Assembly: GCF_024347415.1 (NCBI RefSeq)
Contig: NZ_AP025476.1
Span: forward strand, 744,001 to 808,000
Source of the DNA: Vibrio crassostreae
GTDB taxonomy: Bacteria; Pseudomonadota; Gammaproteobacteria; Enterobacterales; Vibrionaceae
Length of the DNA: 64,000 bases
Direction of reading: 5' to 3'
Shown: positions 155 through 35,265 of the stretch, one piece after another
Layout of the letters: the number at the start of each line of letters is the position of its first letter
Position numbering within the stretch: position 1 is the stretch's first letter
The notes under the pieces: generated by a model
Databases searched by the model: none
What the model was told of the DNA's origin: nothing
The model's input: only the letters and a program-made list of their open reading frames with translations
Translations under genes and position numbers: made by a program

Positions 155-521
155 TGGTGGAGCTGGCGGGAGTTGAACCCGCGTCCAAAAATCATTCATC
201 ATTGGTACTACATGCTTAGTCGATCTTTAATTTCACCAGCAACCTGCGAACCGACACGCTAGTTAAAGGCTAACCTGAATTATAATTCGCGCTTTTCCTC
301 TCAGGTGGGAGAAGCCACGCTAGCTAGTTTGGGTTTGATCTCTTATTGGTCCCCGTCTTACGAGCGGAAGCTAGGGTAAGAGAGCTCTGAGCAGGTTATT
401 AAGCTGCTAGTGCGTAGTTTTCGTCGTTTGCGACTATTTTTTTGCGGCTTTTAACGTGGCCAACCGCCCCACGGCATGCACCTCAGACTTCAAAATTCCT
501 GTCGAATCCTAAATCAGCCCC
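155..521 (-). ncRNA. ssrA: Transfer-messenger RNA (tmRNA, SsrA)
   Basis: The tmRNA rescues ribosomes stalled on broken mRNA: it acts first as an alanyl-tRNA, then as a template that adds a degradation tag. The 5' end reads GGGGCTGATTTAGGATTCGA on the minus strand and the 3' end is the T-arm and acceptor ending CCACCA at 155-160, giving about 367 nt. The tag reading frame runs from 431 down to 402 and encodes ANDENYALAA, followed by two TAA stops (401-396). The tag matches that of E. coli. The gene for its protein partner, smpB, lies immediately upstream on the same strand. Confidence 0.98.
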
Positions 522-1192: not shown

Positions 1193-1621
1193 ATGCCAAA
1201 GGTTACTCGTTCAGCATTAGTGTCGTTTAGTGCCGACCAGATGTTCAGCTTGGTCAATGATGTTGCTCGTTATCATGAGTTTTTGCCAGGGTGTTCTGGT
1301 TCACGTGTGATCGAATCTTCAGATTCAACTATGGTGGCTTCGGTTGATGTCTCTAAAGCTGGTATCAGCAAAACATTTACTACATCGAACCGTTTAGCGG
1401 ATGGTGCAGAGATTTTGATGGAGCTGGTGGACGGCCCGTTCAAGAAGCTGCAGGGTGGTTGGTACTTTACTCCACTCGACGAGCAAGCTTGTAAGGTTGA
1501 ACTTAAGCTAGAGTTTGAGTTCTCTAGCCGAATGATTGAAATGGCATTTGGTAAGATTTTCAATGAGCTGACGAGCAATATGGTCAGTGCTTTTACTCAA
1601 CGCGCGAAACAGGTTTACTAA
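1193..1621 (+). CDS. ratA: RatA-family protein (START/COQ10 domain)
   Basis: This 142-residue protein belongs to the polyketide cyclase/COQ10 family. Its E. coli homologue RatA (YfjG) was reported to block 70S ribosome association, while mitochondrial COQ10 proteins bind ubiquinone. The motifs RYHEFLPGC near residues 26-34 and GPFKKLQGGW near 82-91 are typical of the family. It is divergent from smpB and is followed after 3 nt by ratB, so the two are co-transcribed. Whether it acts as a toxin in this organism cannot be told from sequence. Confidence 0.9.
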   Translation: MPKVTRSALVSFSADQMFSLVNDVARYHEFLPGCSGSRVIESSDSTMVASVDVSKAGISKTFTTSNRLADGAEILMELVDGPFKKLQGGWYFTPLDEQACKVELKLEFEFSSRMIEMAFGKIFNELTSNMVSAFTQRAKQVY

Positions 1622-1624
1622 GCC

Positions 1625-1936
1625 ATGACTATTGAATCGGATATGATCCACGTAGAGGTTGTGTTTGCACTTCCGCATGAACAGCGTGTGTTTACTTTGG
1701 TAGTGAACAAGCACGCGACCGTTGAAGAGATCATTGCGCAGTCTGGTGTTTTGGAATTGTATCCAGAGATCGACTTAGCGAAAAATAAGGTTGGTGTATT
1801 CAGCCGTAACGTGAAGCTTGATGCGACGGTTCGTGATAAAGACCGTATCGAAATCTACCGTGCGCTATTGGCAGATCCAAAAGAGATTCGTCGCAAGCGT
1901 GCTGAACAAGCAAAAGCGGCCGCAGCTAAATCGTAA
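1625..1936 (+). CDS. ratB: RatB/RnfH-family ubiquitin-like protein
   Basis: A 103-residue protein of the RnfH family, with a small beta-grasp fold. The conserved features are [11 protein letters not shown] near residues 10-20 and [10 protein letters not shown] followed by [15 protein letters not shown]. The family is usually encoded after ratA, as here with a 3-nt gap. Its role is not firmly established: it was proposed as an antitoxin partner in E. coli, but later work questions this. The tail is Lys/Arg/Ala-rich. A second in-frame ATG occurs at codon 7. Confidence 0.85.
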
Positions 1937-1962
1937 TGCTAAACAAATTTAAGTTAGAAGAG

Positions 1963-1985
1963 AGCTCGCATCTGCGAGCTTTTTT
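1963..1985 (+). terminator. Terminator after ratB
   Basis: A perfect 8-bp stem (AGCTCGCA/TGCGAGCT) with a 2-nt apex is followed by TTTTT, 27 nt after the ratB stop codon. Confidence 0.85.
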
Positions 1986-2030
1986 GTGCCTGTTAGTTAG
2001 ACACAGCAGCTAATTTGTTAGCAGATATTA

Positions 2031-2058
2031 AAAAGCCTGCTCATATGAGCAGGCTTTT
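2031..2058. terminator. Bidirectional terminator between ratB and bamE
   Basis: A perfect 20-nt palindrome (GCCTGCTCAT/ATGAGCAGGC) is flanked by AAAA on the left and TTTT on the right, so it can act on both strands. It mainly serves bamE transcription coming from the right. Confidence 0.8.
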
Positions 2059-2117
2059 GCGATTCTTGCTTTGTCGACTGATAGCTTTATCGGCTGAGAG
2101 TTTTGTTGACTGGAAAG

Positions 2118-2477
2118 CTAGCGAAGGCTTTCGAAGAACTCATCACTGGCTTCAAAATCACCATTGATCGTTACTAGAGTGCCCGTAGCATCAAAGTTTA
2201 CGACAAGGTTTTTCTGAATAGGGTCGTTGTGACCTTTCTGATGGTGGTAAATGTAGTACCACGTATCTGGGTAGCCATTTTCGATAAGCATAGGTGAGCC
2301 CATAACGTAACGAACTTGTGTTTTTGTCATGCCAAACTTGAGCTGGTCGACAGCTTCTTGTTCAACATAGTTACCCTGATTGATGTCAATTCGATAAACC
2401 AACTTCTCTAATAGAGAGCAACCGGTCAACATTGTTAGTGCAAGTGGAACTGCAACTAACCACTTTTTAATTCGCAT
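2118..2477 (-). CDS. bamE: Outer membrane assembly lipoprotein BamE
   Basis: BamE is the small lipoprotein subunit of the BAM complex that inserts beta-barrel proteins into the outer membrane. The 119-residue product has a signal peptide ending in the lipobox LTGC with the lipidated Cys at residue 20. It carries the family stretch [11 protein letters not shown] followed by [15 protein letters not shown]. The frame is open for 42 codons further upstream, but the start at 2477 puts the signal peptide at the N-terminus. It lies downstream of recN on the same strand, a common arrangement. Confidence 0.93.
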
Positions 2478-2644
2478 AGTTTGAGATCTTTCTTCGCTAA
2501 AATACTGCCTGATAATAAACAAGCTCCAGCAAGAAGTAAAAAGCTCCTTGCGCTTTGAGCTTGTTATGACTGGCAATTTTGAATTAAGTTGCAAAATTGC
2601 CAAGAATTTTCGGTAAATTATCAGAAAGTTGCTGAATATGTAAC

Positions 2645-4309
2645 CTAAGCTGCGATTAATAGCTCTTTTGCGTTGGCAAGCGTCGATTCGGTAATTTGGC
2701 TGCCACCAAGCAGTCGAGCAAGCTCTGAAATGCGTTGTTGCTCATCCAAGGTATGCATTTGAGTTTCTGTTTTACCCGATTTGGTGTTTTTAGCCACGAA
2801 CAACTGTTGGTGTCCGCAACCTGCCACTTGAGGTAAGTGAGTCACACACATGACTTGAGTCGACTCACCGAGTGTACGTAGCATTTTCCCGACAACCGCG
2901 GCCGTTGGTCCACTGATACCCACATCGACTTCATCGAAAATCAGGCTTGGTGTATCCACTTTTTGAGCCGTGATCACCTGAATCGCTAATGAGATTCGTG
3001 ATAACTCACCACCAGAGGCCACTTTAGCAATTGGCTGCATTGGTTGGCCTGGGTTGGTCGAAACAATGAAGGTCACGTTATCCATACCCAATGGAGAAGG
3101 ATGTGTGTTGGTGTTGTTCACTTCAATGGCAAACTGCGCTTTTTCCATACTCAGTTCATGCATGCTTTGCGTGATCAGTTTGTTGAGCTCTTTTGCGTAA
3201 CGAGTTCGAGACTTATGAAGCTTCTCTGATTTAGCCACGAACGACTGGTATTGGTTTTCTACCTCGTTTGCTAACTCTTCTAACTTTTCATCAGAGCAAT
3301 CAAGCGCTTCAACTTGTTGTAATAAATCTTGGTGGTGCTTATATAGCTCTTCTGGCAACACGTGGTGTTTACGAGACATTGACATCACTTTTGAGAAGCG
3401 TTCTTCAACGTAAGCCATACGACCGGGATCAACATCAATGCTATCTAGGTATGTTCTTAACTCGTTGTTGGTTTCTTCAATCTGAATAATGGCTTCAGAA
3501 AGCAAGTTCGGTAACTCGGCCAATCTTTCATCGAGCTCAGCTAACTGAATTAAGGAGTTATTGGCCGATTGCAGAATACCAAGCGCATTAACTTCTTCGC
3601 CTTCATAAATAAGCTCGATAGCTTGCTGACAGGTTGTGGCCAGTTCTCCGCTATTGGAGAGGCGCTTATGCTCTTGTTCGAGGTCTTCATATTCTTCCTC
3701 CCCAATAGACAGCTCATTTAACTCTTTGATTTGGTATTCAAGAAGTTGTTTTTGAGCTTGGTTTTGCTGGCTATTTTCACGTAACTCTTTTAAGTGGTTA
3801 TCTGCTTGTCGCCACGCTTGGTAAGCATTACGTGTTGATTTCAATAGATTCAAGTGGCCTGCGTATTGATCAAGCATGGCCATTTGGTAATCGCTTTTCA
3901 TCAACTGGTGATGCGCGTGTTGACCATGAATGTTGATCAATAGTTGCCCTAGCGATTTCAATTGTGAAAGAGGGACAGGGCTACCGTTGATGAATGCACG
4001 AGAACGACCTTCTTTTGAGATGGTTCTGCGCAGGATGCACTCACTGCCATCAAGCAATTCGTTGTCTTCTAACCAGCGGGTAGCATGCAGATTGTTCTCA
4101 AGTAAAAAAGCGGCACTGACTTCGGTTTTTTCTTCACCTTGTCGAACCATTCCTGCATCGGATCTTCCTCCAAGGCACAAGCCTAAAGCATCGATAGCGA
4201 TAGATTTACCCGCACCAGTTTCACCGGTGATTGTTGTCATGCCTTTAGAGAGTTCTAGCTGTAAAGACTTAACAATAGCGAAATTATTAACACTTAAATG
4301 AGCCAGCAT
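2645..4309 (-). CDS. recN: DNA repair protein RecN
   Basis: RecN is an SMC-like ATPase that acts in double-strand break repair. The 554-residue length is standard. The Walker A motif GETGAGKS lies at residues 29-36. A long central coiled-coil region rich in Glu, Gln and Leu follows. Near the C-terminus come the ABC signature region [12 protein letters not shown] and the Walker B region [12 protein letters not shown]. Three LexA-like boxes lie directly upstream, matching the known strong SOS induction of recN. Confidence 0.97.
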
Positions 4310-4317
4310 TTTTATTT

Positions 4318-4377
4318 ACCTGTATAACTGAACAATACTGTATATAAGCTCAGTATATACTGTTTCTTTATACAGTA
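4318..4377 (-). promoter_or_regulatory. Cluster of LexA (SOS) boxes upstream of recN
   Basis: The best box is TACTGTTTCTTTATACAGTA at 4358-4377 (CTGT-N8-ACAG). A second at 4336-4355, TACTGTATATAAGCTCAGTA, has one good half-site and one with a single mismatch. A weaker third at 4318-4337 has CTGT-N8-ACAA. They fill the space immediately 5' of the recN start codon. Multiple LexA sites are also known at E. coli recN. Confidence 0.85.
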
Positions 4378-4451
4378 AAGTCGGCGGGTTAAAATTTTTT
4401 GCGACAGCTCTCAGAATTAAGCTTGTCTGTAGATCACTGAAACCGCTATAG

Positions 4452-4485
4452 ATTCCCAACTCGGTCGTTCCTTCCTCTTGGGAAT
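4452..4485. repeat. Small intergenic palindromic element
   Basis: Perfect inverted repeats ATTCCCAA (4452-4459) and TTGGGAAT (4478-4485) enclose an 18-nt spacer containing CGGTCGTTCC. From memory, sequences of this kind (GGAATGACG with CGACCGAG) recur between genes in some Vibrio genomes. I see only this copy in the window, so its repetitive nature is inferred. Confidence 0.4.
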
Positions 4486-4542
4486 GACGATGTGGTGGAT
4501 TGGCGTAAAGACAGAGATGGTGGGCTTTTAATCGGTAATAAA

Positions 4543-4569
4543 AAAGGCTGACGAATGTCGTCAGCCTTT
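4543..4569 (-). terminator. Terminator after nadK
   Basis: A 12-bp perfect stem (AAAGGCTGACGA/TCGTCAGCCTTT) with a 3-nt loop is followed on the minus strand by a T-rich tract. It lies about 30 nt past the nadK stop codon. Confidence 0.88.
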
Positions 4570-4600
4570 GAAATTTTCGGTTATTGCTAGAGCTGTTTAG

Positions 4601-5485
4601 TTAGAACAGCTTACTCGACCAACCTAGTTTGTTACGTAGAACGTGGTAGTAATTGTAGTCCTTAGGATGGATCAGTTTGAGTACATTTGGGCTTTGGTAA
4701 ATGTGGATCTCATCGCCAGGGGAAACAGGCAGCGAGATTTGACCATCACAGCTCACTTCCTGAGTTCCGCGGTTATCAGGCGATACGATCAGCTTGATAC
4801 GACGCTTGCCATCCACCACAAGTGGGCGACTTGAAAGGGTGTGTGGGAACATTGGTACTAGTGAGATCGCATTTAGGCTTGATGACAGGATAGGGCCGCC
4901 GCCAGAAAGCGAGTAAGCGGTAGAACCTGTTGGCGTAGAAACGATCAAGCCATCAGAACGCTGCGAGAAGGCAAAGCTGTCGTCGATATACACTTCAAAC
5001 TCGATCATGTGTGCAACTTGACCTGGGTGAAGTACCGCTTCGTTTAGTGCTGCATTATGGCTTTTTATTTGGCCGTGACGGTGAATTTCCGTTTCAAGCA
5101 GGAAGCGTTCCTCTTCCATGAACTCGCCTTTGAGAACATCAGTAAGCGCACTCTGGAAGTTTTCAGGGTTGAGATCGGTTAGGAAACCAAGGTTGCCTCG
5201 GTTAACACCAATCACTGAAATGTCGAAACGTGACAAGATTCGAGCGGCACCGAGCATATTTCCGTCGCCGCCGACCACAATGGCGAGATCGGCGCGTTTA
5301 CCTAATTCAATCAGGCTAGAAAAATGTTCTTTTGGGATGTCGTCTAAAATAGTGGCGAGTCTGTCATCAACAAACACTTGATAACCCTCAGCACTTAACC
5401 ACTGATAGAGCTCTCTATGAGTCTGAATTGCTTGCTGATCTCGAGGTTTACCAATAATGGCGATGACTTCAAATGGCTTTTTCAT
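4601..5485 (-). CDS. nadK: NAD+ kinase
   Basis: NadK phosphorylates NAD+ to NADP+, the only route to NADP in bacteria. The 294-residue protein has the diagnostic GGDGN motif at residues 72-76, the NLGFLTDL segment soon after, and the glycine-rich [15 protein letters not shown] motif of the catalytic site. It is divergent from grpE, the classical gamma-proteobacterial order recN-nadK/grpE. The ATG at 5485 gives an N-terminus ([14 protein letters not shown]) typical of the family. Confidence 0.96.
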
Positions 5486-29802: not shown

Positions 29803-30444
29803 TTAGATAAACAGCGCTTTGTAAGCCTGCTCAATCCCTTCAATCAACATCTGCATACCGATTACCGCTAGTATCAAACCCATCATTCGAGTAATCACAT
29901 TCAGTGCACTTGGCCCAACGGCTTTCACGAAGCGTTCGCCGAATACAAACAACACGTAGGTTAAGGTACACAGTAGACCAAACGCGACGATGGTTATGAT
30001 GGTCTCGTAAATGCCTTCAGTGCTGGCGAAGTTCATCGCGGTGGCTATAGTGCCGGGGCCTGCCAGAATTGGCATGGCTAAAGGTGAAACTGCGATGCTT
30101 AGCGCCGCGTCTCGTTGGGCATCTGAGTTGACTTTCTCTTTCGCTTTGGCGTGTGTTGAGTCGCCTTGTAGCATGTGAAAGCCAATCAAAAAGACCAGAA
30201 TACCGCCCGTGATACGCAGTGCGTAAAGCGTGATACCAAAGAGGTCAAAGATCAGTTTGCCAGAGAGTGCAAACGTACTGACGATGACGAATGCGATAAA
30301 CACTGAACGGAAGGCGATGGACTTGACCGTTTCCCTGTCATTGTCACCGGTTAATCCAAGAAAGATTGGCGTATTGGCGATTGGGTTCATGATGGCAAAA
30401 AAGCCCATGAACACGGTAATGGTATGAATGATGAGCTCTTTCAT
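29803..30444 (-). CDS. MarC-family inner membrane protein (YhgN-like)
   Basis: A 213-residue hydrophobic protein with six likely membrane segments. It has the MarC-family features FFAIMNPIANTPIFLGLT near the N-terminus and ALSIAVSPLAMPILAGPGTIAT in the middle. The family's transport function is not established; the old link to multiple antibiotic resistance was withdrawn. AAAGGAAT precedes the ATG. It is transcribed convergently with the nucleotidase gene. Confidence 0.85.
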   Translation of the reverse strand: MKELIIHTITVFMGFFAIMNPIANTPIFLGLTGDNDRETVKSIAFRSVFIAFVIVSTFALSGKLIFDLFGITLYALRITGGILVFLIGFHMLQGDSTHAKAKEKVNSDAQRDAALSIAVSPLAMPILAGPGTIATAMNFASTEGIYETIITIVAFGLLCTLTYVLFVFGERFVKAVGPSALNVITRMMGLILAVIGMQMLIEGIEQAYKALFI

Positions 30445-30546
30445 ATTATTCCTTTGAAAAGATGCAGTTAAATACTAATGGCTAGTGTATTTAATCTTAG
30501 ATACAAATAATTATTAGAAATAGATAGTAGAGCAAGTGTGAATAAA

Positions 30547-30573
30547 AAACAGCCAGCATAAGGCTGGCTGTTT
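30547..30573. terminator. Terminator after the GGGtGRT gene
   Basis: AAACAGCCAGC pairs with GCTGGCTGTTT around a small loop. It has A-rich DNA on the left, which is a T tract on the minus strand. It lies about 115 nt past the GGGtGRT stop codon. Confidence 0.75.
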
Positions 30574-30686
30574 GATTTTAGTGATAGGTGTAGAGTTTTG
30601 GTCGCGCGTTATTGCGAGTTTCTCAATTATTAAGCTCGACACAACTGCCTCTATACAACAGGCCGACGGTGGAGCTCGTTTTGGCG

Positions 30687-31676
30687 CTATGCGTTTTGAG
30701 ATTCACTCACAGCGACAGCCAATGCAACTGTAGCACCGACCATTGGATTGTTACCCATGCCGATGAAGCCCATCATGGCGACGTGAGCTGGAACAGAAGA
30801 GCTACCTGCAAATTGAGCGTCAGCGTGCATTCTGCCCATGGTATCTGTCATGCCGTAAGACGCAGGGCCAGCGGCTACGTTGTCCGGGTGCAATGTACGA
30901 CCGGTACCGCCGCCTGAAGCGACTGAGAAGTAAGGTAAGCCTTGGCGAGTGCGTTCTGCTTTGTAGATACCAGCTACAGGGTGTTGGAAGCGTGTTGGGT
31001 TGGTTGAGTTACCCGTGATACTCACATCCACTTCTTCTCTGTGCATGATTGCAACACCTTCACGTACATCATCAGCACCGTAACATAAGATCTCGCCACG
31101 AGGGCCTTGTGAGAAGCGGCGACGTTCTGTTTCAACTAGCTCACCTGTTTGGTAATCAAACTGAGTGCGAACATAGGTAAAGCCATTGATGCGAGAGATC
31201 AAGTAAGCGGCATCTTTACCTAGACCGTTTAAAATAACTTTCAATGGTGTTTTGCGTGATTTATTGACGTTCAGTGCAATCTTGATTGCTCCCTCTGCAG
31301 CAGCAAAAGACTCATGGCCAGCAAGGAAAGCAAAGCAGTGGCTCTCTTCATTTAGTAGACGTGCAGCCAGTGCGCCATGGCCGATACCGACTTGACGTTG
31401 CTCCGCAACACTACCGGGTTTTGTGAATGCTTGAAGACCTTCACCAATAATATTCGCTGCTTGTTCAGCGTTGTTCGCTTTACGGAACAGAGCCAATGCT
31501 GCACCAAGAGTGTAGGCGTCAGCGGCGCTTTCAAAAGCGATAGGTTGAGTGTCCATCACCAGCGCTTTTGGATCGACATTGTGTGATAGACAGTATTGGT
31601 TTGCTTGCTCTAAAGAGTCGAAGTGCATTTCTGCCAATACGCGAGTTACTGATTCATTAAATTGAGTGTTCATCAT
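30687..31676 (-). CDS. GGGtGRT family protein, function unknown
   Basis: A 329-residue soluble protein named for its motif ASGGGTGRTLHPDN near residues 255-270. Other conserved-looking stretches are GIGHGALAARLLNEESHCFAFLAGHESFAAAEGA and GNSTNPTRFQHPVAGIYKAERTRQG. No enzyme activity is established for the family to my knowledge. It follows the NifU-like gene by 24 nt with GAGGAAAG upstream, so the two form an operon. The start may be either of two adjacent ATGs (31676 or 31673). The operon leader carries a fluoride riboswitch-like element. Confidence 0.85.
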   Translation of the reverse strand: MMNTQFNESVTRVLAEMHFDSLEQANQYCLSHNVDPKALVMDTQPIAFESAADAYTLGAALALFRKANNAEQAANIIGEGLQAFTKPGSVAEQRQVGIGHGALAARLLNEESHCFAFLAGHESFAAAEGAIKIALNVNKSRKTPLKVILNGLGKDAAYLISRINGFTYVRTQFDYQTGELVETERRRFSQGPRGEILCYGADDVREGVAIMHREEVDVSITGNSTNPTRFQHPVAGIYKAERTRQGLPYFSVASGGGTGRTLHPDNVAAGPASYGMTDTMGRMHADAQFAGSSSVPAHVAMMGFIGMGNNPMVGATVALAVAVSESQNA

Positions 31677-31700
31677 ATCTTTCCTCTAAATTGGCAAAAA

Positions 31701-32393
31701 TTATTGTTGGCGTGGGTTAATCGTGGTCACGGCTTCGTCGAAGCGACCATAAGTCCCAGTCGCAAGGTCGGCCGCTTCATTCGCTGGCACGCCTTGGTTA
31801 ATCGCCTTCATCATTTTGCCGAGGTTGAGATATTCGTAGCCAATCACTTCGCTGTGATCATCAAGTGCAAGCTTGGTCACGTAACCTTCTGCAAGCTCTA
31901 GGTAACGTACGCCTTTCGCTGAGGTTGAATAGCTGGTGCCGACTTGGCTGCGCTGTGTTTGACCTAAGTCTTCCAATGCTGCGCCGATTTCTAGGCCACC
32001 TTCAGAGAAAGCAGACTGAGTTCGACCGTAAACAAACTGCAGGAAGATTTCGCGCATCGCTACGTTGATAGCGTCACATACTAAGTCTGTATTAAGTGCT
32101 TCTAGGATAGTTTTTCCGGTGAGGATTTCAGCGGCCATCGCGGCTGATTGAGTCATGCCTGAACAACCAATCGTTTCGATTAGTGCTTCTTCGATGATGC
32201 CATTTTTTACGTTAAGAGTCAGTTTTGCAGCACCTTGTTGTGGTGCACAAGTGCCAACACCGTGGCTTAAGCCAGAAATAGCGATGACATCTTTTGGGCT
32301 AACCATTGCGCCTTCAACTGGAATTGGAGCTGAATTGTGAAGGTCACCCCTTTGAATAGGGCACATTGATTGAATTTCTGAAGAGTAGTGCAT
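31701..32393 (-). CDS. NifU-like iron-sulfur cluster assembly scaffold protein
   Basis: A 230-residue protein with similarity to the NifU/IscU scaffold fold. Candidate cluster ligands are Cys49 in VGTCAPQQG, Cys76 in ETIGCSGMTQS and Cys105 in DLVCDAI; Cys11 lies near the N-terminus. It differs from housekeeping IscU in length and in its C-terminal half (SAKGVRYLELAEGYV). It is the first gene of an operon with the GGGtGRT gene. Its start codon is preceded by a long structured leader; a 10-bp stem ends 2 nt before the ATG. Confidence 0.82.
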   Translation of the reverse strand: MHYSSEIQSMCPIQRGDLHNSAPIPVEGAMVSPKDVIAISGLSHGVGTCAPQQGAAKLTLNVKNGIIEEALIETIGCSGMTQSAAMAAEILTGKTILEALNTDLVCDAINVAMREIFLQFVYGRTQSAFSEGGLEIGAALEDLGQTQRSQVGTSYSTSAKGVRYLELAEGYVTKLALDDHSEVIGYEYLNLGKMMKAINQGVPANEAADLATGTYGRFDEAVTTINPRQQ

Positions 32394-32395
32394 AA

Positions 32396-32572
32396 TGTTT
32401 TCTCACTTGTAGAGCCATTTAAGACCTAGGGCGTTGAGAAAACAGGACGTGTTGGAAGAGGTGCGGCTAATTCACTACAGATCTTGAGTATCGATAATCC
32501 AAAGGTGTCATGGGTCTTGGTCTCAATAGACTAAGTCCATTTCAAAATGGAGGAATAGCGATACATCCAACA
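32396..32572 (-). ncRNA. Candidate structured RNA domain in the NifU-like operon leader
   Basis: On the minus strand TGTTGGA (32572-32566) pairs with TCCAACA (32456-32450). Inside, GTATCG (32564-32559) pairs with CGATAC (32493-32488), continued by TA and TCC/GGA across single mismatches. Two hairpins lie within: TCCATT-TTGA-AATGGA and a CTT/AAG plus GTCT/AGAC stem. Further on, TGTTTTCTCA (32444-32435) pairs with TGAGAAAACA (32405-32396), covering the region of the ribosome binding site. All pairings were found by eye; no known RNA class was recognised. Confidence 0.55.
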
Positions 32573-32589
32573 GTATTACCTGTTTTCGA

Positions 32590-32668
32590 TTCTGTAGGAG
32601 TCATTAGCACTGTTCGAAAAGAACGGGCGGTTGAAGCAAAAGCTTAGGTGGAACCCCATCACCTGATG
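32590..32668 (-). promoter_or_regulatory. Fluoride (crcB-type) riboswitch aptamer
   Basis: On the minus strand AGGTGATGGGGTTCCACCT forms the first stem (AGGT/ACCT) and its loop. Downstream come AACCGCC and GCTAATGACTCCTAC. These blocks closely match the crcB motif pattern (GGcGATGGaGTTCGCC, AAC-GC, GCTgATGaCTCCTAC). The expected pseudoknot can form between GGGGTT in the loop and GACTCC at the 3' end, with two G-U pairs. A small hairpin AAGC-TTTT-GCTT is inserted after the first stem. The element starts right after a plausible promoter. Confidence 0.83.
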
Positions 32669-32675
32669 GCTATAG

Positions 32676-32703
32676 ATTAGATCTTTATCACACTTTTGTG
32701 CAA
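32676..32703 (-). promoter_or_regulatory. Likely promoter of the riboswitch-controlled operon
   Basis: On the minus strand TTGCAC (32703-32698) and TCTAAT (32681-32676) are spaced by 16 nt. The implied transcription start falls at the 5' edge of the riboswitch aptamer, which supports the assignment. Confidence 0.5.
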
Positions 32704-32761
32704 GCGAATGTTTAGAGCGATTTCGACTATAAACAAGCTTCATTATATTTCGAAAAGTATA

Positions 32762-32810
32762 AAAAAACGCCAATAACGAACTCTGATTAGAGGCGTCATT
32801 GACGTTTTTT
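32762..32810 (-). terminator. Compound terminator after yebG
   Basis: A long imperfect hairpin: AAAAAACG/CGTTTTTT, then CAAT/ATTG, ACG/CGT and an apical CTCT-GATT-AGAG, with single mismatches between the segments. The minus strand ends in a T tract just past the yebG stop codon. The T run on the right also allows action on the plus strand. Confidence 0.8.
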
Positions 32811-32827
32811 AGAAAGGTATCAGCTAG

Positions 32828-33121
32828 TTAAGCTGCATCTTCTTCTGCGTCTTCAACAGCTTCAAGCTTCTTAGCTTTTTTCGGAGCTGGCTTACGCTTA
32901 GCACCTAATGCGTAAAGAACTTCTTCTTTGTTCTTCGCTAGGTACATTGCAAGTTCTTCTTGCTTGCCTTCATCTTCAACTAAATCGCTTTTGCCTAACA
33001 GTTCAAAAAGCTCATCAGCCATATCCAGCATTTTGTCGTATGCGTCAGCTTCGGCTTTAGAGGTAAAAGTCATTTTCTCTTCTCCGTTGCGTTCCACCAC
33101 GTACTTGACGATAACAGCCAT
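32828..33121 (-). CDS. yebG: YebG family SOS protein
   Basis: A 97-residue protein matching YebG: MAVIVKYVVERNGEEKMTFTSKAEADAYDKMLDMADEL at the N-terminus. YebG is LexA-controlled in E. coli and its role is unknown; a link to abasic-site DNA binding has been reported (from memory). The C-terminus has a basic segment KRKPAPKKAKK followed by an acidic tail. GAGG lies 7 nt upstream of the ATG. A LexA box directly upstream supports the assignment. Confidence 0.88.
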   Translation of the reverse strand: MAVIVKYVVERNGEEKMTFTSKAEADAYDKMLDMADELFELLGKSDLVEDEGKQEELAMYLAKNKEEVLYALGAKRKPAPKKAKKLEAVEDAEEDAA

Positions 33122-33148
33122 GGTTAATCCTCTAAGTTTGATAAATTT

Positions 33149-33168
33149 TACTGGCTTTTTATACAGTT
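33149..33168 (-). promoter_or_regulatory. LexA (SOS) box upstream of yebG
   Basis: On the minus strand AACTGTATAAAAAGCCAGTA has CTGT and CCAG spaced by 8 nt, one mismatch from the core CTGT-N8-ACAG, with the flanks ATA and TA conserved. It lies 28 nt before the yebG start. Confidence 0.78.
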
Positions 33169-33209
33169 TCTGATGTTAAAAGTCCAGTTGGAGCCCCAAC
33201 TATGCGGCC

Positions 33210-34106
33210 TCAATCTTGATGTGTAGCCCAGTCTTCACAATAACTCATGAAAGATTTCAGCAGCGGGCTCTGGTATTTGTCTTTATGTACCAGCATCCAG
33301 AAACGTCGTTTCATGTCGAGTGGCACATCGAGCGCTTTCACCCGGCCTGAATCAATCGCTCGTTGCGCCGCCAATCGTGATAAACACGCGAATCCAAGAT
33401 TGGCAGAAACCGAATTGATGATCGCCTCTGTCGTGTTGAGTTCAAAAGATTCATACCAGTGTTCGATACGTGGTGCGACGGCACGAAGGAAAAACTCGCG
33501 AGTCCCTGAGCCTGATTCACGTAGAATCCAATGGCTGCCTTCTAAATCGCTTAAAGTTACTTTTTCTTTTGAAACGAGAGGATGTTGATTACTAACAATA
33601 ATACACATTTCATCGCTGCTAAACTGACTCGAAATGAGTTCAGGGTGTAATGTTTTTCCTTCAATTAGCGCGATATCAAGTTCATAATCCACCAACTTTT
33701 GACAGATCAGTGCACTGTTTGAAATGAACAAGCTTTGATCCTGGTGCTGAGTTCGTTCACGAAAACCTGACAAAATAAACGGTGCGACCTGATTACCAAT
33801 CGTGTCACTCGCGCCGACCTTTAAATTGCCACTTAAAGGCTGGTCGTCACGGAACAAAACATCAATACCCGCAGCTCGGTGAAGTATTTCATCAGCCAAA
33901 GGAAGTAACTTATGTCCCTCTTGGTTGAGAATTAATCGGTTGTTGACCCGGTCAAATAGAGAGTGGCCGAGTTGTTTCTCCATTTCGCCTAGTGCCATGC
34001 TGACCGCAGCTTTAGACAAAAACAGCGCTTCTGATGCTGCGGTAAGCGTCGAATGCTGGGTAATGGTGACAAACACTTTGAGTTGTTTAATTGAAATATT
34101 AGCCAT
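33210..34106 (-). CDS. LysR-family transcriptional regulator
   Basis: A 298-residue LysR-type regulator. The N-terminal winged helix is ISIKQLKVFVTITQHSTLTAASEALFLSKAAVSMALGEMEKQLGH (about residues 4-48). A C-terminal periplasmic-binding-like effector domain follows. The LRESGSGTREFF stretch recalls the YeiE/CysB-like subgroup. The start at 34106 has AGGAATTTG upstream; a frame 32 codons longer is rejected. It is divergent from the TDT-family transporter and is a likely regulator of it. Confidence 0.88.
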   Translation of the reverse strand: MANISIKQLKVFVTITQHSTLTAASEALFLSKAAVSMALGEMEKQLGHSLFDRVNNRLILNQEGHKLLPLADEILHRAAGIDVLFRDDQPLSGNLKVGASDTIGNQVAPFILSGFRERTQHQDQSLFISNSALICQKLVDYELDIALIEGKTLHPELISSQFSSDEMCIIVSNQHPLVSKEKVTLSDLEGSHWILRESGSGTREFFLRAVAPRIEHWYESFELNTTEAIINSVSANLGFACLSRLAAQRAIDSGRVKALDVPLDMKRRFWMLVHKDKYQSPLLKSFMSYCEDWATHQD

Positions 34107-34269
34107 CAAATTCCTAGTTTTGCTCTGCTGGTGAAAACGGGTTCTGTTCAGTATTGATGAACACTTGTTATATATAATTGGATATTGTTTAACGAAGCGC
34201 AAGCGTATTATGGCTTCAACAAGCTGATGAGTTCACAAGTTTAGTGAATTAAGTTTAAGAGAGGCTGAC

Positions 34270-35265
34270 ATGATTCAACGTATTAAATATAGATTAACAG
34301 GAGCTCCAACACCCATGGCAGGGTTAGCGCTAGCAATCGCAAGCTTAGGCTGGTGCTGGGATGGCGTTTTAGTCGCACAAGGTATTTTGCACACCCCAGG
34401 CTTAGTGCAGTGGATCAGTGCAGCTATTGCAGCGGTATTGCTTCTTGTTTTAGCTGTGAAATTTTTGACTCATGGTCATCTATTGCGTGAAGATCTTGCT
34501 CATCCTGTTGTCGGCAGTGTGGTACCAACATTTGCAATGGGGTGCATGGTGGTGTCAGCGTCTTTGGCGCCAATCTCTCAATTCTTACAAGAAGCTATGT
34601 GGTTGGCTTCTGTGGCTTTGCACGTTGTGTTTCTAATGAGCTTTTTGTACCACAGAGCTAAAAACTTTGAGATTCACCACATGGTGCCAAGCTGGTTTGT
34701 GCCACCGATCGGTATTATCGTCGCTGACGTCTCTTTCTCTGGTAATCCAGTTTTAGAGCCAGTAGCTAACGCGACTTTGGTATTCGGCTTATTGGTTTAC
34801 GCAGTAATGCTACCAATCATGGTTTACCGTTTGATCTTCTCTCACGAAGTGCCAGATGCTGCAAAACCAACGATTGCGATTATGGCAGCACCGGCAAGCC
34901 TATCTTTGGCGGGTTACTTAACCGTTACTGCTAGCCCTTCACCTGTGATCATTGGTTTACTATTTGGTATTGCAGTGTTGATGACGTTCATTATCTATAT
35001 GGCGTTTTTCAAACTACTTCGTCTTCCATTTAGCCCTGGTTATGCAGCGTTTACCTTCCCAATCGTGATTGGTGCAACAGCCTTGTTTAAACTGGCTGCG
35101 TGGATGCAAGCACAAGGTATTGAAGCGCATTACATCAATCAAGTGTTTGGCCTAGCGTATCTTGAATTGATTGTGGCTACGTTGGTTGTGGGTTATGTCG
35201 CTGTTCGTTACTACATGAACTACAAACCTCATCGTGTTTTAGGCGCGGTAGCGGGTAGATTGTAA
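34270..35265 (+). CDS. TDT-family transporter (TehA-like)
   Basis: A 331-residue polytopic membrane protein of the tellurite-resistance/dicarboxylate transporter family, related to TehA and SLAC1-type anion channels. It has about ten hydrophobic segments and the family-like opening GAPTPMAGLALAIASLGWCW. The midsection MVPSWFVPPIGIIVAD is also typical. The substrate is not known; tellurite resistance should not be assumed. AGAGAGG lies upstream of the ATG. Divergence from a LysR gene suggests inducer-controlled expression. Confidence 0.85.
   Translation: MIQRIKYRLTGAPTPMAGLALAIASLGWCWDGVLVAQGILHTPGLVQWISAAIAAVLLLVLAVKFLTHGHLLREDLAHPVVGSVVPTFAMGCMVVSASLAPISQFLQEAMWLASVALHVVFLMSFLYHRAKNFEIHHMVPSWFVPPIGIIVADVSFSGNPVLEPVANATLVFGLLVYAVMLPIMVYRLIFSHEVPDAAKPTIAIMAAPASLSLAGYLTVTASPSPVIIGLLFGIAVLMTFIIYMAFFKLLRLPFSPGYAAFTFPIVIGATALFKLAAWMQAQGIEAHYINQVFGLAYLELIVATLVVGYVAVRYYMNYKPHRVLGAVAGRL

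Follow-up and report, generated by a model that had tools for sequence, protein, structure and literature searches.

Fluoride riboswitches (the crcB RNA motif, Rfam family RF01734) have been described as raising expression (PMC11139923, PMC9495176), and translational fluoride riboswitches are already known in Pseudomonas syringae and another species (PMC13273304). The fluoride operon of Enterobacter cloacae FRM is reported to carry spare copies of inhibited enzymes (PMC5533749). Here we analyse a 64,000-nucleotide stretch of Vibrio crassostreae DNA (contig NZ_AP025476.1, positions 744,001 to 808,000; hereafter the window), in which a fluoride riboswitch aptamer precedes a two-gene operon for an IscU-like protein and a GGGtGRT protein. 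We propose, with a probability of roughly 0.7 for the reading as a whole, that a fluoride-responsive translational ON riboswitch controls this operon, and that the two proteins probably form an iron-dependent unit which keeps a metal-dependent function running under fluoride.

The aptamer and the two genes behind it lie as follows.

32588-32672, minus strand: fluoride riboswitch aptamer (RF01734; cmscan with curated thresholds, score of 48 bits with a gathering threshold of 34; E 3.2e-10 over the 64 kb of the window)
31701..32393, minus strand: gene for the NifU/IscU-like protein, 230 amino acids (PF01592, 23.9 bits)
30687..31676, minus strand: gene for the GGGtGRT protein, 329 amino acids (PF14057, 561 bits)

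The identity of the aptamer is confirmed by sequence analysis. A sequence-only reading of the window had recognised it from three conserved blocks on the minus strand, and these are present in the order proposed: AGGTGATGGGGTTCCACCT at 32646-32664, AACCGCC at 32626-32632 and TGACTCCTAC at 32594-32603, the last being only the end part of the third block as originally given, which begins further upstream. The covariance check with RF01734 that it had suggested for the site was run and scored above the gathering score. The IscU-like gene starts 194 nt past the aptamer 3′ end, and the aptamer lies in the 5′ untranslated region (UTR); a scan of the whole genome (5.8 Mb, four contigs) with RF01734 found no second fluoride aptamer. 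Among 28 operon-linked aptamers, 96.3% of the pair cells in the three helices (P1, second stem and pseudoknot) are standard, a value reached by none of 500 shuffles, the significance being overstated because the sequences are related. The GGGGTT/GACTCC pairing that had been put forward as a possible pseudoknot is the pseudoknot of the RF01734 family: its five pairs are formed in 99.3% of cells, and two of the five show changes on both sides (G-C to A-U and G-U to U-G, nine sequences each). Both-side changes occur in P1 too, and the second stem is paired in 89.9% of cells. The covariation score (0.287 versus 0.084) was likewise reached by 0 of 500 shuffles and collapses when the partner strand is slid; weaker measures are the six pairs with both-side changes, which 31 of 500 shuffles reach, and further pair types, which 202 of 500 reach. 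It is very improbable that the aptamer is degenerate or binds another ligand, with the operon outside fluoride control. Although the window's own copy has one mismatch in the second stem, the core blocks are present, P1 and the pseudoknot show compensatory changes across relatives, the linkage to the operon persists over the clade, and sister aptamers precede fluoride exporters.

That linkage is seen across the family. In 150 Vibrionaceae genomes, drawn evenly from a larger group and searched with RF01734 and PF14057, the aptamer occurs in 93 (90 above the cut-off) and GGGtGRT in 69. The survey of gene context in relatives that the sequence-only reading had recommended shows that 68 of these 69 genomes have an aptamer on the GGGtGRT strand, 812-1026 bp upstream of the match to GGGtGRT. 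A single genome, G011, has GGGtGRT without a linked aptamer, and in another (G013) the GGGtGRT gene is in two pieces. The linked aptamer is the only aptamer in 55 of the 68.

As had been claimed for this locus, no exporter lies nearby, and the window operon has no exporter gene under its aptamer. A single CrcB match was found in the genome; it has no aptamer with it and is 2.6 Mb away in contig coordinates, or 0.8 Mb in the other direction should the contig be a closed circle. The best CLC-F match, 27% identical, is on another contig. The same aptamer class serves exporters elsewhere in the family. Fourteen Vibrionaceae aptamer loci unlinked to GGGtGRT were inspected at the DNA level; 13 precede a CLC protein of 456-466 amino acids, whose top hit in the PDB is 6d0j, the CLC fluoride/proton antiporter (E 2e-64), and one precedes CrcB. 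CLC-F was found in 33 and CrcB in 113 (112 above the cut-off) of the 150 genomes, with no genome holding both; the 69 GGGtGRT genomes have one type each, 56 of them CrcB and 13 CLC-F. An aptamer lies within 600 bp upstream of 32 of the 33 CLC-F genes. The remaining one, in G104, stands 281 nt downstream of GGGtGRT on that gene's strand. The two genes are separated by a terminator-like hairpin, and no aptamer was found between them; here the aptamer, IscU-like, GGGtGRT and CLC-F genes form a same-strand row (1518-5229 of locus L211), followed by a thiamine pyrophosphate (TPP) riboswitch (1518-1616). Separate aptamers for CLC-F and for the GGGtGRT operon are present in 12 genomes. Of the 59 CrcB genomes with an aptamer, 55 have it in front of GGGtGRT, and CrcB itself directly follows an aptamer in one Vibrionaceae genome only (G001, locus L020). 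Seven of the 107 Vibrionaceae aptamer matches serve neither GGGtGRT nor CLC-F: the one belonging to CrcB in G001, one above the cut-off with no assigned target (G005) and five below the cut-off. The exporter types are thus neatly split in the family, CLC-F mostly having its own aptamer and the aptamer of CrcB genomes serving almost only the GGGtGRT operon.

Three competing helices were recognised in the window's 279-nt leader, with significance taken from duplex energies against dinucleotide shuffles of each leader (SD, Shine-Dalgarno sequence).

32591..32597, minus strand: 5′ strand of helix A, CTACAGA, overlapping the aptamer 3′ end
32475..32481, minus strand: 3′ strand of helix A, TCTGTAG (anti-aptamer); duplex energy p 0.04 against shuffles in the window's leader
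32579..32587, minus strand: 5′ strand of helix B, GAAAACAGG (anti-anti-SD), directly after the aptamer
32438..32446, minus strand: 3′ strand of helix B, CCTGTTTTC; p 0.01 in the window's leader
32435..32443, minus strand: 5′ strand of helix D, GTTTTCTCA (anti-SD), sharing bases with the 3′ strand of helix B
32397..32405, minus strand: 3′ strand of helix D, TGAGAAAAC, covering the ribosome-binding region of the first gene; p 0.01 in the window's leader

Without fluoride, the aptamer 3′ end would pair with the downstream strand to form helix A, so that the anti-SD strand would be available for helix D, which covers the ribosome-binding region. With fluoride, the folded aptamer would keep its own 3′ end and so block helix A, and the strand directly after the aptamer would capture the anti-SD as helix B, allowing synthesis of both proteins. 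Because A and B cross, a simple nested fold can contain only one of them.

The helices recur in the Vibrio-type leaders, where p ≤ 0.05 is reached by A in 22, by B in 25 and by D in 22 of 28; they were first spotted by eye and the Vibrio-type group was defined after the leaders had been inspected, so that these tests are not blind, and several leaders are near-copies, so that the counts are not independent events. Helix finding by longest perfect match misassigned many leaders and was replaced by the duplex energies with shuffles. Positions 1-7 of helix B are fixed by the anchoring motifs and only positions 8-13 are informative: all 17 distinct Vibrio-type versions are paired at positions 8 and 9, with compensatory changes on both sides, and positions 10, 11, 12 and 13 pair in 10, 7, 11 and 12 of them. 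Helix A varies by group with matching changes, for example CTACAGA/TCTGTAG and CTATTA/TAATAG (the best match in each leader being taken). Left unconstrained, the window's leader has A and D in its minimum free energy (MFE) fold (-73.6 kcal/mol). When P1 is formed and the pseudoknot bases are kept out of pairing, B is present in the MFE fold (-66.0) and forcing D costs 2.5; these energies exclude the pseudoknot and the ligand. Predicted accessibility of the ribosome site rises from 0.27 to 0.56 when the aptamer bases are held out. At the sequence level the competing helices are established alongside the aptamer and its conserved linkage, and in the Vibrio-type leaders they likely fit a translational ON switch. 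The direction of switching we infer from the predicted folds. Fluoride very probably turns the operon on.

A switch of the opposite sense, with fluoride turning the operon off, or one acting by transcription termination, is quite improbable. Equilibrium folding is only partly decisive on this point and the Photobacterium-type leaders are weak for B and D, but a terminator scan of the window's leader found no intrinsic terminator on the minus strand, D covers the ribosome-binding region in the predicted folds only when B is absent, and, as noted above, fluoride riboswitches are described as raising expression. The Photobacterium-type leaders (for example L038, L045 and L051) are about 290 nt long including the aptamer and have a conserved aptamer tail; by eye they show a GAGGAC/GTCCTC pair and no clear helix D, and their platform looks unlike the Vibrio type. 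Taken with the conserved linkage and the CLC-F genes behind the same aptamer class in Vibrionaceae, the coherent ON switch gives good support to the earlier proposal that the operon is a fluoride-response module.

The two proteins are as the sequence-only reading had named them, to differing degrees. The GGGtGRT protein matches PF14057 over profile positions 9-326 of 327. It is predicted to have a helical N-terminal part and a Rossmann-like domain, and is very conserved, with invariant His, Asp and Cys residues; no significant solved relative was found by sequence. The nearest named matches of the protein are from Vibrio, and a record name places GGGtGRT in Aliivibrio fischeri as well. Its residue 85 is Thr in the window and Cys in 91% of 33 aligned rows. 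In the IscU-like protein, residues 39-125 are modelled as an IscU fold, and C49, C77 and C106 are invariant in 30 of 30 aligned rows. The canonical IscU ligand set is three Cys and one Asp. C49 is offset from the IscU cysteine, C106 has no match to the third IscU cysteine, and no Asp is found at the usual place. The NCBIfam IscU, NifU and SufU equivalogs score 15.7-28.7 bits against cut-offs of 92.5-273.3, none being reached. The label 'NifU scaffold' is weak, since these cut-offs are all missed and only some of the canonical ligand positions are retained. At residue 56 an extra Cys (CAPQQGAC or similar) is present in 77% of the 30 rows, and Ala in the window and six other rows (L059, L063-L066 and L088).

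Published responses to iron concern both proteins. For Bacteroides thetaiotaomicron, an 11- to 12.8-fold decrease under iron depletion is listed for BT0173-74, its GGGtGRT and NifU genes (PMC10434189), and in the early phase of Clostridium pasteurianum cultures with iron excess GGGtGRT is 7.1-fold higher and a NifU-related protein 2.4- and 3.7-fold higher in two spots (PMC5395762; columns assigned by printed order). Both proteins are also reported in rumen and chicken gut studies (PMC7035244, PMC11204068). The accessible portions of these four papers give no function for GGGtGRT. We found no literature joining a fluoride riboswitch with GGGtGRT, NifU or Vibrio iron-sulphur (Fe-S) proteins in a search that left supplementary tables and Baker 2012 outside its scope: NifU has zero mentions in the main text of Weinberg 2010 (PMC2864571), PMC11139923, PMC9495176 and PMC13273304, and iron and Fe-S have zero in that of Liu 2017 (PMC5533749). 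An earlier listing of the aptamer-GGGtGRT gene context is possible.

The fold, the invariant residues and these iron responses together suggest the role of the proteins. In the reading we prefer, the two would act as one iron-dependent unit, in which the IscU-like protein loads or carries an Fe-S or other metal centre for GGGtGRT, and the unit would keep a metal-dependent function running while fluoride ties up metals. Such a unit is plausible. That the pair protects or rebuilds metal centres under fluoride, as first suggested, may be counted as one of two or three readings; in its favour are the IscU-like fold, the three invariant cysteines and an expression that follows iron supply in anaerobes. 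Rather unlikely, by our estimate, is that the pair acts as a fluoride-insensitive stand-in for, or an extra copy of, a fluoride-inhibited metabolic enzyme, with the IscU-like protein merely a maturation partner or small subunit. Enolase and pyrophosphatase occur in this way in other fluoride operons, and the spare copies of Enterobacter cloacae FRM are of this kind (PMC5533749); moreover, GGGtGRT is enzyme-like in its high conservation, invariant His, Asp and Cys and Rossmann-like domain, and is reported to be highly expressed in gut anaerobes (PMC11204068). However, no substrate or paralogous enzyme was identified, and in the neighbourhoods compared the two genes are the only ones to recur as a set, no pathway neighbour or further Fe-S assembly gene being widespread nearby. 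Less likely again is an operon devoted primarily to iron homeostasis or Fe-S storage, for which fluoride would be a proxy for disturbed free iron or magnesium. The expression data from Bacteroides and Clostridium point that way, but the same aptamer class serves CLC-F in the same family, where the signal read is fluoride stress.

Several observations weigh against the iron-dependent, fluoride-switched unit that we favour. On the protein side, the PF01592 (NifU_N) cut-off of 22 is barely exceeded at 23.9 bits, the model of the IscU-like protein has a predicted local distance difference test (pLDDT) value of 67, structure comparison returned no specific structural relative of GGGtGRT, and the iron-response data stem from anaerobes, not from Vibrio. 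On the RNA side, besides the second-stem mismatch in the window's aptamer, the other 28 leaders (26 of Photobacterium type, L060 and L196) reach p ≤ 0.05 for helices A, B and D in only 12, 5 and 4 cases. For the window, 21 slid control stretches gave a mean of 0.33 and a maximum of 0.64, so that the best control exceeds the 0.56 obtained with the aptamer bases; across 55 leaders, holding out the aptamer bases increased accessibility by more than 0.1 in only 17, the slid controls giving a mean count of 3. Finally, the linkage is restricted. Among 295 genomes of the wider order, GGGtGRT occurs in 45 and is unlinked in 23: 15 belong to family f3, which clusters with Succinivibrio-like anaerobes, six to f10 and one to f21, and in the last, G438, the gene is a fragment. 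For named GGGtGRT loci (the best 80 of 585), 50 genomes were tested and linkage was judged from coordinates: none of 44 is linked. These are largely Bacteroidota and Bacillota, their titles pointing mainly to gut anaerobes, and include two gammaproteobacterial metagenome-assembled genomes (MAGs). An aptamer-like match was found elsewhere in seven of the 44, above the cut-off in three. Fluoride is therefore not a general inducer of the pair.

The linked cases have a narrow distribution. Of the 22 linked genomes of the order, 13 belong to the window's genus and six to one further family, and three stand singly, two of these matching Shewanella gelidimarina and Motilimonas pumila by coordinates; the six linked genomes among the 50 named ones are all gammaproteobacteria. 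In a midpoint-rooted tree of 55 GGGtGRT proteins, six further rows being left out, all 19 linked rows fall within one group of 24 with a Shimodaira-Hasegawa-like approximate likelihood ratio test (SH-aLRT) value of 98. By sequence, the linked operons are part of one gammaproteobacterial clade, and the three label changes on the tree may represent one gain and two losses. At somewhat less than even odds, and thus tentatively, the IscU-like and GGGtGRT proteins would be a non-exporter fluoride-defence unit that belongs to ordinary iron-rich metabolism in anaerobes and was captured once under a fluoride riboswitch by this clade, becoming in many Vibrionaceae the sole riboswitch target, with the exporter left without one.

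The boundaries of the operon and its candidate promoters are as follows.

32762..32810, minus strand: intrinsic terminator after yebG (hairpin and T tract, -23.1 kcal/mol for 32755-32812)
32726..32731, minus strand: candidate -10 box TATAGT, 53 nt before the aptamer (consensus scan; by eye, a TATAGT-like box recurs upstream of relatives)
32676..32703, minus strand: alternative promoter, by eye (-35 TTGCAC at 32698-32703, -10 TCTAAT at 32676-32681, spacer 16)
30547..30573, minus strand: intrinsic terminator at the operon end (11-pair stem and T tract, -17.7 kcal/mol for 30535-30580)

The yebG terminator sets the operon apart from the upstream gene. A promoter had been placed just upstream of the aptamer; a promoter-like element is indeed present, though ambiguous in position, and the consensus scan of 30300-33300 is no better than chance (three promoter-like sites, 4.0 expected). 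The alternative promoter block is kept in 10 of 20 Vibrio-type upstream regions, and its -35 matches the consensus at only three of six positions. By eye, a TTGCnnnAAAGTGTGATnnAGATCTA-like sequence follows the TATAGT-like box and a TCTAA block at 32676-32735 on the minus strand, in common to 10 of the 20 regions; its AAAGTGTGATnnAGATC part upstream of the aptamer is more conserved than is usual for a promoter spacer and resembles a CRP half-site. A second regulator may act upstream of the aptamer. Elsewhere in the window, a gene for a SLAC1-type anion channel (34270-35265, plus strand) is divergent to a LysR regulator gene (33210-34202, minus strand) at a distance of 1.6 kb from the aptamer, and shows no sign of being part of the fluoride operon; a transfer-messenger RNA (tmRNA) gene is close to the window edge (155-521, minus strand; RF00023, 256 bits).

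A ligand-specific riboswitch in front of GGGtGRT makes the function of a very conserved family directly testable. The conserved pairing points to a fluoride response that does not rely on export; it also suggests an iron-linked target of fluoride toxicity and bacterial answers to fluoride that go beyond pumps. Seawater holds tens of micromolar fluoride, and the marine habitat may therefore be relevant.

Compared with known systems, the locus shares with RF01734 its aptamer sequence, helices, pseudoknot and 5′ UTR position, and differs from those RF01734 relatives in Vibrionaceae that precede CLC-F or, once, CrcB in controlling an IscU-like and a GGGtGRT gene with no exporter. Transcriptional fluoride riboswitches have an overlapping terminator, whereas the window's leader has the three-helix A/B/D arrangement instead. 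The Enterobacter cloacae FRM operon (ppaC, uspA, eno, gpmA, crcB and orf5249; PMC5533749) is similar in that a fluoride riboswitch drives non-exporter genes; it differs in encoding glycolytic and pyrophosphatase enzymes and including CrcB, while the window operon has no exporter and its products are weakly assigned. The IscU-like protein resembles the IscU/NifU N-terminal scaffold (PF01592) in its predicted IscU fold and the retained GC-motif cysteine C77; in the first ligand region, by contrast, it reads CAPQQG where two aligned IscU-type chains read NPVCGD and APACGA, about 105 residues follow its IscU domain, and it falls far below the NCBIfam scaffold cut-offs. The GGGtGRT protein agrees with its family (PF14057) at near full length, and its gene follows an IscU-like gene as in anaerobes; in one gammaproteobacterial clade this pair stands behind a fluoride aptamer, unlike in the 44 tested genomes of other lineages.
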